From: Phycisphaerales bacterium
GTDB lineage: Bacteria > Planctomycetota > Phycisphaerae > Phycisphaerales > UBA1924
Assembly: GCA_020846975.1 (NCBI GenBank)
Contig: JADLCX010000021.1
Location: 1-64,000 of the forward strand
DNA: 64,000 nucleotides
Direction: 5' to 3'
Below the pieces are notes generated by a model. It was not told the origin of the DNA. It searched no databases and worked only from the letters and a program-made list of their open reading frames with translations. Made by a program: the position numbers and the translations under genes. This document shows, piece by piece, positions 3,094-11,126 of the stretch; within the stretch, counting starts at the first letter, position 1; each line of letters begins with the position of its first letter.

Positions 3094-4395
3094 CTACTGC
3101 GACGCTTTCACCATATCGGCGAGTCGATCCAACCCGGCAGTCAGGTTTGCTCGCGGGGGGCCGAAGCTGAATCGGACGAATCGGCACAGACCTGGGTCGG
3201 CTTGTCGCTTGGTCCCAGGGTTCACATCGAAGAACTCGCCTGGAACAGTCAGAACACGGTGCTTGAACGCCTCGCGCATGAAGCCCTGCCCGGTGCTGAG
3301 CGGGCCGGGGAGTGACGATACATCGCCGTAGATGTAGAAGGTGCCCGAATGGCGGCTGGCGGGATGGTGGAACTTGACGCCCAGCGCGCTCAGCCGCTCG
3401 ATCGTGATGCGCCGCTTCTCGGCAAACTCGGCACGGACCGCCGCGAGTTCCTGATCGGCGCGGGCGGGCTTGAGCACCTCGATCGCCGCACGCTGCATCG
3501 GGCGACACGGCCCTCCATCCAGGAAGCTGCCCGCCGCGGTCATGCGCTGGATGATGTCCGTGGGCGCAACGACCCAGCCGATACGCCAGCCCGGGTACCG
3601 GAAGCACTTGGTCAATCCGTCGATCACGACGACCCGATCGCTGTTCACATCGTCGATGAACTCGGCGGCGCTTACGCCCGCGGATGCCGGCTTGCCGTCG
3701 GCGGTGTAGTGGTAGTGGGAGTAGAACTCGTCCATGAGCAGGGTCGTGCCGCGCGTGCGGGAAAGCTCGACCCACGCCCTGAGTTCCTCGCCGCTGATCA
3801 CCACGCCGGTCGGGTTGCACGGATTGCTGATCAGCAGCGCGTCGAGCCTGTCTCGACCGACGCGGTCGCCCAAAGCTTCCGGGGTGATGGTGAAGCCGCT
3901 CGCCGGAGAGAGGTCGATCTGCACGGGATCGATCGTCGGGAACGAGGTCAGCAGGTCTTCATAGGCCGTGTAATCCGGCGTGAAGTGGCCGAGCCGCGCG
4001 TGCTTCATCGAGGCGGCCAGGCGAGAGAGCGCCATGCGCCCGCCCGCCGCGACGGCGATGTTCTGCTCGGTGTATTGCGACTTCATGCCGACTCGGTACA
4101 GACGGTTGTAGTGGGCGGCGATCGCGGCCCGCAGGTCCGGTAGGCCTTCGACCGGCCCGTACGCGTGGTCCGCAAGGTCTATCTTGAGGTCGCTGAATCT
4201 CGCCGGCGCGCCCGGCAGCTCCCCCACTTCCGGTTGACCCTGCCCGAGGTTCGACCACGATGGGTCGCCCATGCGGTATCCCACCCTTGCGGCCTCGTTG
4301 TTGACACGGATCACGCCCATGAAAGGCAGGTCGCGGAAGACCGCCGCGGCGGGCAGAGGAGCGGTTCGCGTCGGCTGGGGTGGGGCTTGGATCAT
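3094..4395 (-). CDS. Pyridoxal-phosphate-dependent aminotransferase (class I/II)
   Basis: A 433-residue fold-type I aminotransferase. Visible motifs are the YGPVEGLPDLR substrate/cofactor region, SNPCNPTG, MDEFYSHY and the Schiff-base lysine in DGLTKCFRYPGWRIGW, followed by a C-terminal Arg region (RFVRFSFGP). These are typical of aspartate/aromatic/alanine-type enzymes that move an amino group between an amino acid and a 2-oxoacid in the cytosol. The exact substrate cannot be read from sequence. The gene is divergent from the first globin gene and has no obvious operon partner. Confidence 0.88.
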   Translation of the reverse strand: MIQAPPQPTRTAPLPAAAVFRDLPFMGVIRVNNEAARVGYRMGDPSWSNLGQGQPEVGELPGAPARFSDLKIDLADHAYGPVEGLPDLRAAIAAHYNRLYRVGMKSQYTEQNIAVAAGGRMALSRLAASMKHARLGHFTPDYTAYEDLLTSFPTIDPVQIDLSPASGFTITPEALGDRVGRDRLDALLISNPCNPTGVVISGEELRAWVELSRTRGTTLLMDEFYSHYHYTADGKPASAGVSAAEFIDDVNSDRVVVIDGLTKCFRYPGWRIGWVVAPTDIIQRMTAAGSFLDGGPCRPMQRAAIEVLKPARADQELAAVRAEFAEKRRITIERLSALGVKFHHPASRHSGTFYIYGDVSSLPGPLSTGQGFMREAFKHRVLTVPGEFFDVNPGTKRQADPGLCRFVRFSFGPPRANLTAGLDRLADMVKASQ

Positions 4396-4628: not shown

Positions 4629-5066
4629 ATGTTCCTCGACCATTCAAGCGTTCAGCAGGTCCGCACGCACGGGGCCGCGATCGATCGTTGCGCCTACCAG
4701 CTCGTTGACGGGTTCTGCGACCGGTTCTTCGGCGCCTGCCCGCACCTCCGAAGGTCATTCGCGACCGATGCGCGGCAGCGCCGGGAAATGGCGCACCGAT
4801 GGGCGTGGTTCATCCGGCATCTGGGTGAGACCGACCTTGTGAAGACCGAGCTCGGCCGGTTCGGCAAGACGCTCACCTCGCGCGGGTTCAGCCACCCGAC
4901 CTTCCTGACGGCCCGGGCGTGTCTGCTCGAAGCGACCCGTGCTGCGGCGCACACCTGCAACGCGCCGTGGGGGCCCGCACAGGAATCGGCGTGGGCCTCC
5001 GCGATCGACGCCTGCCTTGAAGTCATGAACCCGTCGGCCCGCATGTTCTACGCCAAGGCCGCCTGA
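4629..5066 (+). CDS. Globin-fold protein without an evident proximal histidine (first of a tandem pair)
   Basis: A 145-residue protein with the globin pattern: a B-helix-like segment (LVDGFCDRFFGACPHLRRSF), an E-helix-like segment (residues 54-74, MAHRWAWFIRHLGE) and a G/H region (TFLTARACLLEAT). Globins usually bind haem through a His in the F helix. Here the F-helix stretch, residues 75-87, has only Gly, Arg, Phe, Lys, Thr and Ser; the next His (89) aligns with the start of helix G instead. It may be a haem-free globin fold or use another ligand. A GGAG sits before the chosen ATG. A second globin follows 212 bases downstream on the same strand. Confidence 0.72.
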   Translation: MFLDHSSVQQVRTHGAAIDRCAYQLVDGFCDRFFGACPHLRRSFATDARQRREMAHRWAWFIRHLGETDLVKTELGRFGKTLTSRGFSHPTFLTARACLLEATRAAAHTCNAPWGPAQESAWASAIDACLEVMNPSARMFYAKAA

Positions 5067-5278
5067 TTGCGGTGGCTCCGGCAGGTTATTGAGACCTACA
5101 ACGACGAAGTTCGGCAATCTCCGCAAGCCGGGATCGGTCACAACCGATTCTGAATTGGACGGTTGTTCAGGCACGTCCCCGTTGTCGGGTCGGACGCTGA
5201 CGCTCGGCGTGCACCCGCTGATGGCTGGCCCCCCTCCCCCCTCCCCCTGTTCCCTTCAACATGACGCGAGGTTCGCCG

Positions 5279-5704
5279 ATGAACGCCGATCAACTCGACA
5301 GCATCCGTGAGACGTTCCGCACGCTCGCACCCCGCGGGCCGGAGTTGTTCGAGCGGTTCGTCAAGCGGGTCAGGGCGGCATCGCCGACACTCGGCAAGCT
5401 CTTTCCCGACGAGCCCCGTGACCACGCCCAACCCTACATCGCGCCGTGCGGGATGGTGGTGAAGAACCTGCACCGGCTGAGCGCGATTGAATACCTGCTG
5501 CTCGAAACGGGTGTGCGGAACCAGATGCTCGGGATGGAGCCGCGGGACTACGGCATCATCCGGGATGCCCTGCTCGAGACCCTGCGCGAAGGCATGGGCG
5601 ATGAGTGGACGCACGACCTCCACGACGAGTGGATGGAGGCGATCCAGGTCGTGACCAGCCTGATGATCCGCGGCGCGGGCCGGGCTCGGGCGAAGGCGGC
5701 GTAA
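5279..5704 (+). CDS. Globin-fold protein without an evident proximal histidine (second of a tandem pair)
   Basis: A 141-residue single-domain globin. The C-terminal half (ALLETLREGMGDEWT, then EWMEAI) closely follows the flavohaemoglobin/vitreoscilla-type G-H region. In that family the motif R-H-x-G-Y-G-V-x-P-E-H-Y contains the proximal His; here the matching stretch is R-N-Q-M-L-G-M-E-P-R-D-Y, so Asn81 stands at the His position. Oxygen or NO binding in the usual way is therefore doubtful. The ATG at 5279 is preceded by GCGAGG; an in-frame ATG at 5261 would add six residues. aspS follows 96 bases downstream. Confidence 0.82.
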   Translation: MNADQLDSIRETFRTLAPRGPELFERFVKRVRAASPTLGKLFPDEPRDHAQPYIAPCGMVVKNLHRLSAIEYLLLETGVRNQMLGMEPRDYGIIRDALLETLREGMGDEWTHDLHDEWMEAIQVVTSLMIRGAGRARAKAA

Positions 5705-5800: not shown

Positions 5801-7654
5801 ATGCTCCGGCGCACGCACACCTGCGGCGAGCTTCGTGAATCGCACATCGGCCAGACCGTCAACCTCAATGGCTGGGTCAACAGCTACCGCGACCACGGCG
5901 GCCTGGTCTTCATCGACCTGCGCGACCGCTTCGGCCTGACGCAACTGGTCTTCGATCCCGAGGGCGCGGCCAATCCGTCCATGCACGAGGCCGCCCGCAA
6001 GCTCCGCAACGAGGATGTTGTCGCGGTGCGGGGCACGATCCGGACCCGTATCGGCGGCGAGAACCCCAAGCTGGCGACCGGCAAGGTCGAGCTGGTCGTG
6101 TCCGAGCTCGAGGTGCTCAACAAGACCGACAATCCCCCGTTCCTTCCCGACGATTTCGGCCAGTTGCCCAACGAGGAGATCCGGCTCAAGCACCGGTACC
6201 TCGACCTCCGCCGGACGACGATGCAGAAGATCCTGACCACGCGCCACAACGTGATGCGTGCGACGCGGAACTACTTCCACGAGAACGGCTTCCTCGAAGT
6301 CGAGACGCCGATCCTGTACAAGTCCACGCCCGAGGGGGCCCGCGAGTTCATCGTCCCCTGCCGCAACGTGCCGGGAACATTCTACGCACTCCCGCAGTCG
6401 CCCCAGTTGTTCAAGCAGATCCTCATGGTGTCGGGATGCGATCGATACATGCAGATCTGCCGCTGCTTCCGGGATGAAGACCCGCGCGCCGACCGCCAGC
6501 CGGAGTTCAGCCAGGTCGATCTTGAAATGAGTTTCGTCCGGCGCGAGCACATCATGGAGATGATGGAAGGGTTCGTGCGCCGAGTGTTCGGTGAGGTGCT
6601 CGGCATCACCGTGCCCGCGCTGGTGCGCATGCCCTACCGCGAGTGCCTTGAACGCTTCGGGATCGACCGTCCCGACACGCGGTACGGGCTGGAGATCAAG
6701 GACATCTCCGAGATCGCGGCCAAGTGCGATTTCAAGGTCTTCAAGGATGCGCTCGCGAAGAACCCCACCGCCCGCCAGTTCTACTCCAAGAAGGGCGTCG
6801 TGAAGGCGATCCGCATTCCGGGCGGCGCGGAGAAACTGACCCGCAAGCTGACCGACGGCTACAGCGAGTGGGTCAAGACCTTCGGCGCGGGGGGTGTCGC
6901 CGTCGTCAAAACGATCAAGACGCCGGACGGCAACATCGGATTTGAGACCGGTATCGCCAAGTTCATCGACGCTCCGACCGTTAAGCCCGAGCTCATCGCC
7001 GCGCTGGGCCTTCAGGTCGGCGACACCGTCCTGTTCGTGGCCGACACTTACGCCGTCGCGACCAAGACGCTCGGCGAACTTCGGCAGAAGGTCGCCCGCG
7101 ACCTCGGCATCGTGCCCGAGTGGGGCAAGATGTGGAACTTCCTGTGGATGATCGATCCGCCGATGTTCGAGCGCAACAAGGACACGGGCAAGTGGGTCGC
7201 CCTGCATCACCCCTTTACGGCACCGCGCGACGACCAGGCCGCGGCGTTCGTCGAGGCCGCCGAGGATGACGACGAAACCCTCGAGTCGATCGTGTCGGCG
7301 GGCTACGACGTCGTGCTCAACGGGTCGGAGATCGGCGGCGGCTCGATCCGCATCCACGACCGCGCGGTGCAGAGCAAGGTCTTCCAGTTGCTGGGCCTCT
7401 CGCCCGAGCAGGCCAAGGAAAAGTTCAGCTTCCTCCTCGAGGCGCTGTCGTACGGCGCACCTCCCCACGGCGGCATCGCCTTCGGGCTCGACCGGCTCGT
7501 CATGCACCTGGTCGGATCGGACAACATCCGGGACGTGATCGCCTTCCCCAAGACGCAGATCGGCGCCGACCTGATGACGCGGGCCCCGAGTTCGTGCACG
7601 GAGGACCAGATGAAGCAGGTCCACATCAAGAGCACGTGGGTTCCGCCGGTTTGA
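5801..7654 (+). CDS. aspS: Aspartyl-tRNA synthetase
   Basis: A 617-residue class II aminoacyl-tRNA synthetase that charges tRNA-Asp with aspartate. In order: an N-terminal OB-fold anticodon-binding domain (VNLNGWVNSYRDHGGLVFIDLRD), the catalytic domain with FLEVETPIL (motif 1), CRCFRDEDPRADRQPEFSQ (motif 2), an inserted GAD domain about residues 290-420, and motif 3 near the C terminus (GGIAFGLDRLVM). Length and insertion are those of the usual bacterial type. The ATG follows a GGAAGGA ribosome-binding site. No partner gene overlaps it. Confidence 0.98.
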   Translation: MLRRTHTCGELRESHIGQTVNLNGWVNSYRDHGGLVFIDLRDRFGLTQLVFDPEGAANPSMHEAARKLRNEDVVAVRGTIRTRIGGENPKLATGKVELVVSELEVLNKTDNPPFLPDDFGQLPNEEIRLKHRYLDLRRTTMQKILTTRHNVMRATRNYFHENGFLEVETPILYKSTPEGAREFIVPCRNVPGTFYALPQSPQLFKQILMVSGCDRYMQICRCFRDEDPRADRQPEFSQVDLEMSFVRREHIMEMMEGFVRRVFGEVLGITVPALVRMPYRECLERFGIDRPDTRYGLEIKDISEIAAKCDFKVFKDALAKNPTARQFYSKKGVVKAIRIPGGAEKLTRKLTDGYSEWVKTFGAGGVAVVKTIKTPDGNIGFETGIAKFIDAPTVKPELIAALGLQVGDTVLFVADTYAVATKTLGELRQKVARDLGIVPEWGKMWNFLWMIDPPMFERNKDTGKWVALHHPFTAPRDDQAAAFVEAAEDDDETLESIVSAGYDVVLNGSEIGGGSIRIHDRAVQSKVFQLLGLSPEQAKEKFSFLLEALSYGAPPHGGIAFGLDRLVMHLVGSDNIRDVIAFPKTQIGADLMTRAPSSCTEDQMKQVHIKSTWVPPV

Positions 7655-7863: not shown

Positions 7864-8607
7864 ATGCAGTGGTTCGAGGATGACCATCTATGGCGCGAGC
7901 TGCGCGAGGTGCTGTTCACACCCGAGACACTCGCGAAGGCCCCGGCGGAGATCGACGCGCTGTGGCGCCTCGTCGGGCCGCGTGCCGGCGCGGCCGTGCT
8001 GGACTTGCCATGCGGAGTGGGACGGCACGCGATCGAACTCGCGCGCCGCGGCTGCCGCGTCACCGCGGCCGATCGAACTCGCCCGTACCTGCTGGAGGCA
8101 CGAGATGCCGCCTCGGCCGTCGGCGTCGAGCTGGAACTGGTCGAGGCCGACATGCGCGAGTTCTGCCGGCCCGGCGCGTTCGACTTCGTGTTCAATCTCT
8201 GGACGAGCTTCGGGTACAACGCAGACCCCGCGGATGACGCCCGTGTGCTCGCCAACTTCTTTGCGAGCCTGAAGCCCGGCGGAACCCTGGTCATGGAGTT
8301 GCACTCGAAAGAGACCTGCGCGAAGGTCTTCCGCGAGCGAGATTGGCGGCGGCTGCCCGACGGCCGGGTTCTGATCGAGGAGCGTGCCGTGCGCGACGGC
8401 TGGGGATGGATCGACAACGTGTGGAACGTGCTCGACGGCCCCAGCCGGCGCGAGATCAGGTTCGGGCATCGCCTGTACTCGGCGATCGAGCTCTGCGATC
8501 TTGCTTCGCGTGCCGGGTTCACGGATGTGCGGACATTCAATGGGTTGACCGGCCTGCCGTTCGACCACGGGGCCGAGCGCCTGGCGATCACGGCTCGCAG
8601 GGATTGA
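7864..8607 (+). CDS. Class I SAM-dependent methyltransferase
   Basis: A 247-residue Rossmann-fold methyltransferase. Motif I is LDLPCGVGRHAIELARRG (residues about 46-63), with the acidic residue after strand 2 (TAADRTRPYL), the motif around residue 98 (EADMREF) and the strand-4 segment FDFVFNLWTSFGYN. The C-terminal half contains LKPGGTLVMELHSKE. The family methylates small molecules, proteins or RNA using S-adenosylmethionine; the substrate cannot be told. It stands alone between aspS and a gene for an exported protein. Confidence 0.85.
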   Translation: MQWFEDDHLWRELREVLFTPETLAKAPAEIDALWRLVGPRAGAAVLDLPCGVGRHAIELARRGCRVTAADRTRPYLLEARDAASAVGVELELVEADMREFCRPGAFDFVFNLWTSFGYNADPADDARVLANFFASLKPGGTLVMELHSKETCAKVFRERDWRRLPDGRVLIEERAVRDGWGWIDNVWNVLDGPSRREIRFGHRLYSAIELCDLASRAGFTDVRTFNGLTGLPFDHGAERLAITARRD

Positions 8608-8714
8608 GCGCGGAATCAAAAACCGGTGTCCGTCGAGGCTCGAAGTACCTGCGTGAGGCATGGGGTCCCCCCCGACGCGCCCAACCCCGAACTCGCCTCG
8701 CGAAGGAGATCCCG

Positions 8715-10157
8715 ATGACGTTCATGTTCATGGCACGAGGTTCCGGCCGACGGGTTTCAGCGGTTGCGTGCCTGCTGATCTCGGCCGCGCAGACGCACGC
8801 ATCCAGCCACCGTGAGGCCCCCGGCACCGCGGCCAACCCGACGATCGACGGCACGGATTTCTACATGTTCCGGAGCTACGAACCCGGACGCGAAGGCTTC
8901 GTGACCATCGTGGCCAACTACATCCCCCTGCAGGACGCGTACGGCGGGCCCAACTACTTCAAGTTCAACCAGAACGCCGTCTACGAGATCAACATCGACA
9001 ACAACGGCGATGCCCAGCCGGACTTCGTGTTCGAGTTCCGCTTCACCAACACGATCCGCGGCCTGTCATTGAACGTCGGGGGCGTGATGGTGCCCGTCGC
9101 GCTCAACAACATCGGTTCGATCGGACCCACGGCCCTGGACAACGGCAATCTCAACGTCCTTGAGTCGTACAACGTCGTGCTTCGACGCCCGAACTCCAGC
9201 GCGTTCCTGCGACCGGTCGGCGCACCGGGACAGTTTGACTACCTCAAGCCCGGCGACAACATCGGCGGGAAGACGTTCGCCGACTACCCGACGTACGCCG
9301 CTTCGCACCAGTCCACGATCCGGTTGTCGGGGTCGCAGTCCGGTCGCGTGTTCGTCGGGCAGCGCAAAGATCCGTTCGTCGTCAACCTCGGCGAGGTCTT
9401 CGACCTGGTCAACACCAACCCGCTCGGACCGGAAGATGGCGAGCGCGACGACCTGTACGACAAGAACGTGACGTCGATCATCCTCGAACTTCCGATCTCG
9501 TTCCTCACGCGTCCGGGCGAGCCGGTCATCGGCGGGTGGACGTCGGCCAGCCTGGCGACCCCGATCTTCGTCAGCCCATCCGGGGAGTACGTGCCCGGGC
9601 GCGGCACGCGCCAGGTTTCACGCCTCGGAATGCCTCTGGTGAACGAGGTCGTGATCGGCCTGCCCGACAAGGATCGCTTCAACGCCAGTGAGCCGCGGAA
9701 CGACGGGCAGTTCCTGACCTACGTCACCAATCCGACCCTGCCCGCCATTCTTCAGTCGCTGTTTCCCGCGGTCACCGCGCCGTGCCTTCCGCGGAACGAC
9801 CTGGTGTCGATCTTCCTCACCGGCATTCCCGGACTGAACCAGCCCGCGAACGTTCGGCCGTCGGAGATGCTGCGGCTCAACACCGCCATCGCTCCGACGC
9901 CCGCGGCCATGCAGAGTCGGTTGGGCGTTCTCGGCGGCGACCTGGCCGGTTTCCCCAACGGACGGAGGCCGGGCGACGACGTGGTCGATATCTCGCTGCG
10001 TGCCGTGATGGGCGCGGTGGTTCCCAACGCCGGTCAAGCCGGGAGCTGCGCGCCCTCGGGCAACCTGGCGTTCACCGACGGGGCGTTTCTTGATGCAACC
10101 CGGTTCGCGGCCGCGTGGCCGTACTTGCAGCCGCCGATCGCGGGTTCGCCGAACTGA
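8715..10157 (+). CDS. DUF4331 domain-containing exported protein
   Basis: A 480-residue protein with a hydrophobic signal-like leader (GRRVSAVACLLISAAQTHA) followed at once by SSHREAP, the hallmark start of DUF4331. The rest keeps family features: DGTDFYMFRS, NFKFN-type segments, KRDPF-like (GQRKDPFVVNLG) and a late NDGQFLTYVTNPT block, and a C-terminal NLAFTDGAFLD. Function of DUF4331 proteins is not established; they are secreted or periplasmic. The ATG at 8715 is preceded by GAAGGAGAT, a strong ribosome-binding site. It is followed at 102 bases by another exported protein, possibly one transcript. Confidence 0.88.
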   Translation: MTFMFMARGSGRRVSAVACLLISAAQTHASSHREAPGTAANPTIDGTDFYMFRSYEPGREGFVTIVANYIPLQDAYGGPNYFKFNQNAVYEINIDNNGDAQPDFVFEFRFTNTIRGLSLNVGGVMVPVALNNIGSIGPTALDNGNLNVLESYNVVLRRPNSSAFLRPVGAPGQFDYLKPGDNIGGKTFADYPTYAASHQSTIRLSGSQSGRVFVGQRKDPFVVNLGEVFDLVNTNPLGPEDGERDDLYDKNVTSIILELPISFLTRPGEPVIGGWTSASLATPIFVSPSGEYVPGRGTRQVSRLGMPLVNEVVIGLPDKDRFNASEPRNDGQFLTYVTNPTLPAILQSLFPAVTAPCLPRNDLVSIFLTGIPGLNQPANVRPSEMLRLNTAIAPTPAAMQSRLGVLGGDLAGFPNGRRPGDDVVDISLRAVMGAVVPNAGQAGSCAPSGNLAFTDGAFLDATRFAAAWPYLQPPIAGSPN

Positions 10158-10259: not shown

Positions 10260-11126
10260 GTGATCAAGGCAATCACTTGGCCGATGATGATGGTTCTGGT
10301 GCTCGCTCTGGCCGCGCCGGCGTGGGCGCACGACTTCTGGATCCGACCGTCGTCGTACGCACCCACGGCCGCTACGCTCGTGAGCCTCGATCTGCGGATC
10401 GGCGACGACTATCCGGGCGAGGTATTCAGACGCAAGGATTCGATGATCGAGCGGTTCGTGGCGATCTCGCCCGACGGAACCGAGGCACCCGTTGTCGGGC
10501 TTGACGGGCGAGCGCCGGCCGGCGCGTTGCGGATCGAGAGTCCCGGATCGCACATCGTGGTCTATCGCGGCAAGCACGCGACGGTGCAACTGGAGAGCGC
10601 GAAGTTCGAGGACTACCTCCGTGAGGAGGGGCTTGAGAAGATCATCGAGGCCCGCAAGAAGGCGGGCGAATCCGACAAGCCGGGCCTGGAGATGTACTCG
10701 CGGTGCGCGAAGTCGATCATCTTCGCTCGCGGTTCGGAAAGCGATGCCGCGCCGGTGACCACGGGCTTCGATCGTGTCGTCGGACTTCGCCTCGAACTCG
10801 TGCCGATCACCGATCCGGCCGCGGCCAAGCCGGCTGAGGAGTTTCAAGCCAGGCTGCTGCTGGACGGCAAACCCTGTTCCGGCGTGCTGGTCGGCGCCAA
10901 CTGCGTCGAGGATGCCCGTGCGCGGGTTCGGGGCCGTACGGGCGAGAACGGCGAGGTCAAACTGAAACTCTCGCGTGCCGGCACCTGGGTGCTGAACGCG
11001 GTCGAGATGTTGCCCGCGCCGACCGACACCGCCGCCAACCCGACGGGGTGCAAGTGGGAGAGCCTGTGGGCGTCGCTGAGTTTCGAGGTCGTCGAACCGC
11101 CCGCGAAGAAGACGGAACCCAAGTGA
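10260..11126 (+). CDS. DUF4198 (NikM-like) exported protein
   Basis: A 288-residue protein with a clear signal peptide (MMMVLVLALAAPAWA) and mature N terminus HDFWIRPS, the typical opening of DUF4198/NikM-like periplasmic proteins. Members often sit by metal or cobalamin transporters; the conserved His-Asp near the mature N terminus could bind metal, but no transporter is adjacent here. Start is GTG at 10260. Its end faces the OppF-type gene with only 24 bases between. Confidence 0.85.
   Translation: MIKAITWPMMMVLVLALAAPAWAHDFWIRPSSYAPTAATLVSLDLRIGDDYPGEVFRRKDSMIERFVAISPDGTEAPVVGLDGRAPAGALRIESPGSHIVVYRGKHATVQLESAKFEDYLREEGLEKIIEARKKAGESDKPGLEMYSRCAKSIIFARGSESDAAPVTTGFDRVVGLRLELVPITDPAAAKPAEEFQARLLLDGKPCSGVLVGANCVEDARARVRGRTGENGEVKLKLSRAGTWVLNAVEMLPAPTDTAANPTGCKWESLWASLSFEVVEPPAKKTEPK

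Follow-up and report, generated by a model that had tools for sequence, protein, structure and literature searches.

Predicted single-domain globins without the proximal haem histidine upstream of aspS in a Phycisphaerales bacterium

Two adjacent genes of a Phycisphaerales bacterium (assembly GCA_020846975.1), here P1 and P2, encode predicted F-family globins in which the proximal haem histidine is replaced. They lie in the 64,000-nucleotide stretch that was analysed (contig JADLCX010000021.1, positions 1 to 64,000 of the forward strand; called the window here). Our preferred reading, to which we assign a probability of roughly 60%, is that these F-family globins have abandoned haem and now act as free-standing proteins binding a ligand or a partner, and that a ClpXP-type tail probably controls their abundance. 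P2 would be this genome's copy of a globin found upstream of aspS across the family. In the aspS-linked lineage, the F8 His and the B10 Tyr would have been lost together several times, with retention of the fold, two Trp residues, a helix G Arg and an Ala-Ala tail. The empty or reshaped pocket may bind another small ligand, or the protein may bind a partner, after the example of the non-haem globin domain of RsbR and with no attached output domain. ClpXP-type proteolysis, to which the exposed Ala-Ala tail would direct the protein, would then set its level.

Globin fold and haem-pocket residues

P1 (4629..5066, + strand, 145 aa) and P2 (5279..5704, + strand, 141 aa) are both intact open reading frames in place, and their description in the earlier note as adjacent globin-fold proteins is borne out by profile matches and predicted structures. 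P2 matches the Pfam Globin model (PF00042) with an E value of 1.9e-7 and 32 bits, the curated cut-off being 22, and the flavohaemoprotein model at 3.9e-9. In the PDB it matches F-type globins by sequence, best of all Hell's Gate globin I (PDB ID: 3s1i; E 3e-7). P1 is a divergent member. With Pfam Globin alone it scores 14.6 bits (E 0.048), below the curated cut-off of 22, but a profile of P2 and its relatives, from which P1 had been left out, found it in its own genome at E 1.1e-11. The same profile found no further globins beyond P1 and P2 in this genome. AlphaFold models, each computed from an input of six sequences, have a mean pLDDT of 95.4 (P2) and 89.5 (P1), and both are ordinary 3/3 globins. 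The best match of both models by VIA-align was again 3s1i (P2: Z 19.2, 131 residues, 1.8 Å; P1: Z 17.7, 130 residues, 1.9 Å). Both proteins consist of a single domain and lack a fused STAS output domain. On these models and matches, P1 and P2 are assigned to the F-family (flavohaemoglobin-type) single-domain globins.

Alignments place Leu82 of P1 (codon 4872..4874, + strand) and Asn81 of P2 (codon aac, 5519..5521, + strand) in the F8 column. The proximal His is thus missing in both proteins, as had been claimed. The motif R-N-Q-M-L-G of P2, with Asn81 at the His position, had also been read correctly; relatives have R-H-x-x-Y-G in the alignment. In the AlphaFold models, both residues sit where F8 is expected, Asn81 towards the end of the F helix predicted for P2 (71-83) and Leu82 towards the end of a predicted P1 helix (68-84). 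Two other histidines had been named as possible proximal ligands. By sequence, neither is at F8: His65 (P2) falls in the turn between helices E and F, and helix G of P1 starts with His89. At position B10, where haem-type relatives have Tyr, the alignment shows Cys30 in P1 (codon 4716..4718, + strand) and Val28 in P2 (codon 5360..5362, + strand). Since the B10 Tyr has gone too, and the two losses also coincide in relatives, the missing F8 His is more than chance. The CD1 Phe is present in both proteins (Phe44 in P1, Phe42 in P2), and G5 of P2 is Tyr91.

Foremost among candidate alternative haem ligands is His49 at the distal E7 position of P2 (codon 5423..5425, + strand); it aligns without gaps to the E7 Gln of 3s1i. 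P1 has His56 in its E helix. Because of these two residues, the absence of a proximal His stands as an observation, while an inability of P1 and P2 to bind haem is an inference.

F8 and B10 across the family

A family profile found about 100 globin domains in 80 of 163 genomes of the same family. The F8 residue is His in the majority, and Ala, Leu, Asn, Cys and others also occur; Ala is the commonest replacement. After the addition of order-level loci to the family set, F8 and B10 could both be read in 113 domains. F8 His and B10 Tyr were both present in 73 of these and both absent in 33; six had the His only, and one had the Tyr only. In other words, the B10 Tyr is also gone in 33/34 His-less domains. 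It is found in 90–94% of His-bearing members, and there is no majority residue at B10 in the His-less set. The CD1 Phe falls from 93–98% of His-bearing members to 51% of the His-less ones. Kept in the His-less group are W110 (100%), W118 (97%), G107 (74%) and R95 (71%), and also P43. As B10 has no majority residue and the CD1 Phe is reduced, with the two Trp, R95, G107 and P43 kept, the haem site appears to have been abandoned as a whole while the scaffold was kept. Further genomes hold highly divergent globin-like proteins without the F8 His (L128, L132, L134, L140, L144 and L145), several of which retain an Ala-Ala end.

These counts bear on the possibility that a distal ligand (His49 at E7 in P2 or the E-helix His56 in P1) has taken the place of the proximal one and that P2, and perhaps P1, can still bind haem. 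Besides the ungapped alignment of His49 with the E7 Gln of 3s1i, it is favoured by a His one position beyond E7 in 10/37 His-less relatives and by the CD1 Phe42 and G5 Tyr91 that P2 keeps. However, the B10 Tyr is lost as well, the CD1 Phe is gone in half of the His-less members, and about half of them have no His at all in the E-helix stretch around E7. We regard haem binding of this kind in P1 or P2 as unlikely.

The aspS locus and the tandem pair

The aspartyl-tRNA synthetase gene aspS (5801..7654, + strand) begins 96 nt 3′ of P2 in the same direction and is a conserved neighbour of P2-like globins. On the other side of P1 and P2 lies a class I/II aminotransferase gene (3094-4395, minus strand). 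Elsewhere in the window, a single ORF at 221-2410 fuses a glucosamine-6-phosphate isomerase domain to a PIG-L (LmbE) deacetylase domain, a gene on the minus strand (2618-2923) encodes a small TatA/E-type protein (PF02416), and genes for a DUF4331 protein (8343-10157) and a DUF4198 protein (10260-11126) follow each other on a shared strand.

A P2-like globin stands directly 5′ of aspS, and co-directional with it, at 27 loci, with a gap of 47–261 nt that is often around 113 nt. Most of these loci carry a single globin. The F8 residue there is His (10), Ala (9), Asn (3), Leu (2) or Phe (1), with two gaps and one masked position (one locus is counted twice). This recurrent arrangement, spacing included, would suit regulation of aspS expression or charging by the globin, which could act as a leader gene or as a protein sensor. 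Against such regulation, no Rfam element was found near P1 and P2, and no promoter-like or terminator-like site was found at the globin–aspS locus; moreover, many globins with an Ala-Ala tail are not adjacent to aspS. We hold a regulatory role to be quite unlikely, and the link may be plain synteny. A more far-reaching reading, also unlikely, is that free-standing globins without haem form a family in planctomycetes, born repeatedly from haem globins beside aspS, and act as sensors or partner proteins that are controlled by proteolysis (ClpXP, Ala-Ala tail) and tied to translation or aspartate status.

The tree of AspS proteins requires at least six changes between His and non-His at F8, and the globin tree at least five. 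In the globin tree, P2 groups with five other globins (98/93 support), the six having His, Ala, Ala, Asn, Asn and Asn at F8, and a clade of His-less globins with Ala is coherent (100/100 support). Part of the changes may reflect differential retention of old tandem paralogues across genomes. In G154, a His-less and a His-bearing globin stand in tandem before aspS, and relatives of this genome retain one or the other. The canonical His-bearing line of the family, which has no tail, is found elsewhere, beside genes for an ECF sigma factor (PF07638) and a large Ser/Thr kinase-WD40 protein. This arrangement occurs at about 20–30 loci (for example L064, L066, L080, L082 and L105) and is a possible globin-linked signalling module.

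Selection was estimated on close His-less relatives elsewhere, P1 and P2 themselves having no close relative; dN/dS was approximately 0.04–0.09 for L094/L098 and 0.08 for L107/L117, and His-bearing pairs fall in the same range. These close His-less relatives are maintained, under purifying selection. These values weigh on the idea that P1 and P2 are decaying remnants, drifting under weak constraint after the loss of haem binding. P1 would fit such decay by its very long branch (2.3–2.75 changes per site) and its identity of only about 20% to P2. Yet both reading frames are intact, dN/dS is low in the close His-less pairs, the His-less Ala clade is coherent and the C-terminal tail is conserved, and we consider decay to be distinctly improbable. 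The earlier note had proposed a haem-free role shared by the two neighbours. A haem-free use of the globin fold gains support, since the His-less state recurs in a conserved family under selection and several haem-pocket residues decay together; that the role is shared by the pair does not.

A tandem pair with both His lost is peculiar to this genome. Including the window, tandem globins occur at four loci: both members have the His in G138 (before aspS) and in G173 (where the contig ends), one has it in G154, and neither has it in the window. Among homologues, then, the missing His is a recurrent state, and the doubly His-less tandem is limited to this genome. No close P1 orthologue was found in the 163 family genomes; the best matches there scored no more than about 36 bits and were to general members of the family. 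On the globin tree, a sister relationship of P1 and P2 is neither supported nor rejected (p-AU 0.42), and the same holds for a position of P1 within an old His-less paralogue clade of G154, G153, G161 and G162 (p-AU 0.49). P1 is a second copy that evolves rapidly and whose origin is uncertain.

An obligate heterodimer of P1 and P2 with a common function, as had been suggested, would agree with tandem genes on one strand that both lack the F8 His and the B10 Tyr. It fits poorly with the other tandem loci, which keep at least one His, with P1 having no close orthologue in the 163 genomes and with the single globin at most aspS-linked loci. The heterodimer is not sustained, and we judge it very unlikely.

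The Ala-Ala C-terminus and known systems

Both proteins end in Lys-Ala-Ala, a candidate degron (P1: 5055..5063, + strand, end FYAKAA; P2: 5693..5701, + strand, end GRARAKAA), and the tail is conserved in the family. An Ala-Ala end is found in 29/34 His-less domains, 29/79 His-bearing domains and 8/482 neighbouring genes of at least 150 codons each; the association between tail and His loss is not independent on the tree, and a test on independent pairs had too few pairs. A basic residue occupies position −3 or −4 in 52/64 tails, as compared with 24% of genes. The Ala codons of the tail vary, which places the constraint on the protein and rules out one at the level of RNA. The 29 His-bearing members that carry the tail also rule it out as a mark of His-less proteins only. 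As His-bearing relatives share it, the tail is no mark of haem loss and probably came earlier; it is probably older than this family. Ala-Ala tails were also seen on some His-bearing globins of other families in the order, not beside aspS (L156, L157, L160, L163 and L174).

This genome has a clpX gene and a tmRNA tag reading ANNNYALAA. The Ala-Ala ends of the globins resemble this tag and known AA degrons, and we infer that the tail is a putative ClpXP-type degron. We may speculate that a degron on a globin originally coupled haem occupancy to stability. In Caulobacter CdnL, the C-terminal AA is needed for degradation (PMC5324124). CdnL and other ClpXP substrates with AA ends share a conserved C-terminal Ala-Ala with P1 and P2, and AA or VA ends more than 80% of alphaproteobacterial CdnL proteins (PMC5324124). 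The fold of CdnL is unrelated, and its degradation has been measured, whereas that of P1 and P2 is proposed.

Haem-free globins have so far been known from a few scattered sensor domains. At the P2-like syntenic locus, haem-type and His-less states stand side by side in close genomes, with parallel losses, and haem loss and the selection that follows it can therefore be studied stepwise. The data suggest that the globin fold has taken on a task for which haem is dispensable, and the Ala-Ala tail points to a link of globins with regulated proteolysis that can be put to the test. A literature search, with most subscription journals outside its coverage, found no paper describing these planctomycete globins.

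The closest haem-binding relatives are Hell's Gate globin I of Methylacidiphilum infernorum (3s1i) and Vitreoscilla haemoglobin, both of which rank high among the matches of P2 by sequence and by structure. They are F-family single-domain globins and resemble P2 in fold, length and helix pattern. Unlike P1 and P2, they have the F8 His and the B10 Tyr and bind haem, and no Ala-Ala tail is shown for them. In RsbR of Bacillus subtilis, the F8 His is replaced by Ala and no haem is bound (PMC4476040). The N-terminal non-haem globin domain of this stressosome protein shares with P1 and P2 the globin fold and the replaced F8 His, but it comes from the sensor-globin line and is fused to a STAS output domain. 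A further non-haem globin domain is the N-terminal domain of MabR (PMC11617747, which also cites Photoglobin and the sensor domains of Bacillus sporulation inhibitors). All of these reuse the globin fold without haem, as proposed here, although families and architectures differ; the globin domains of RsbR and MabR are parts of larger signalling proteins, whereas P1 and P2 are free-standing. Non-haem globins as such are thus already known, and what is added here is a set of free-standing F-family proteins with parallel losses in one locus.
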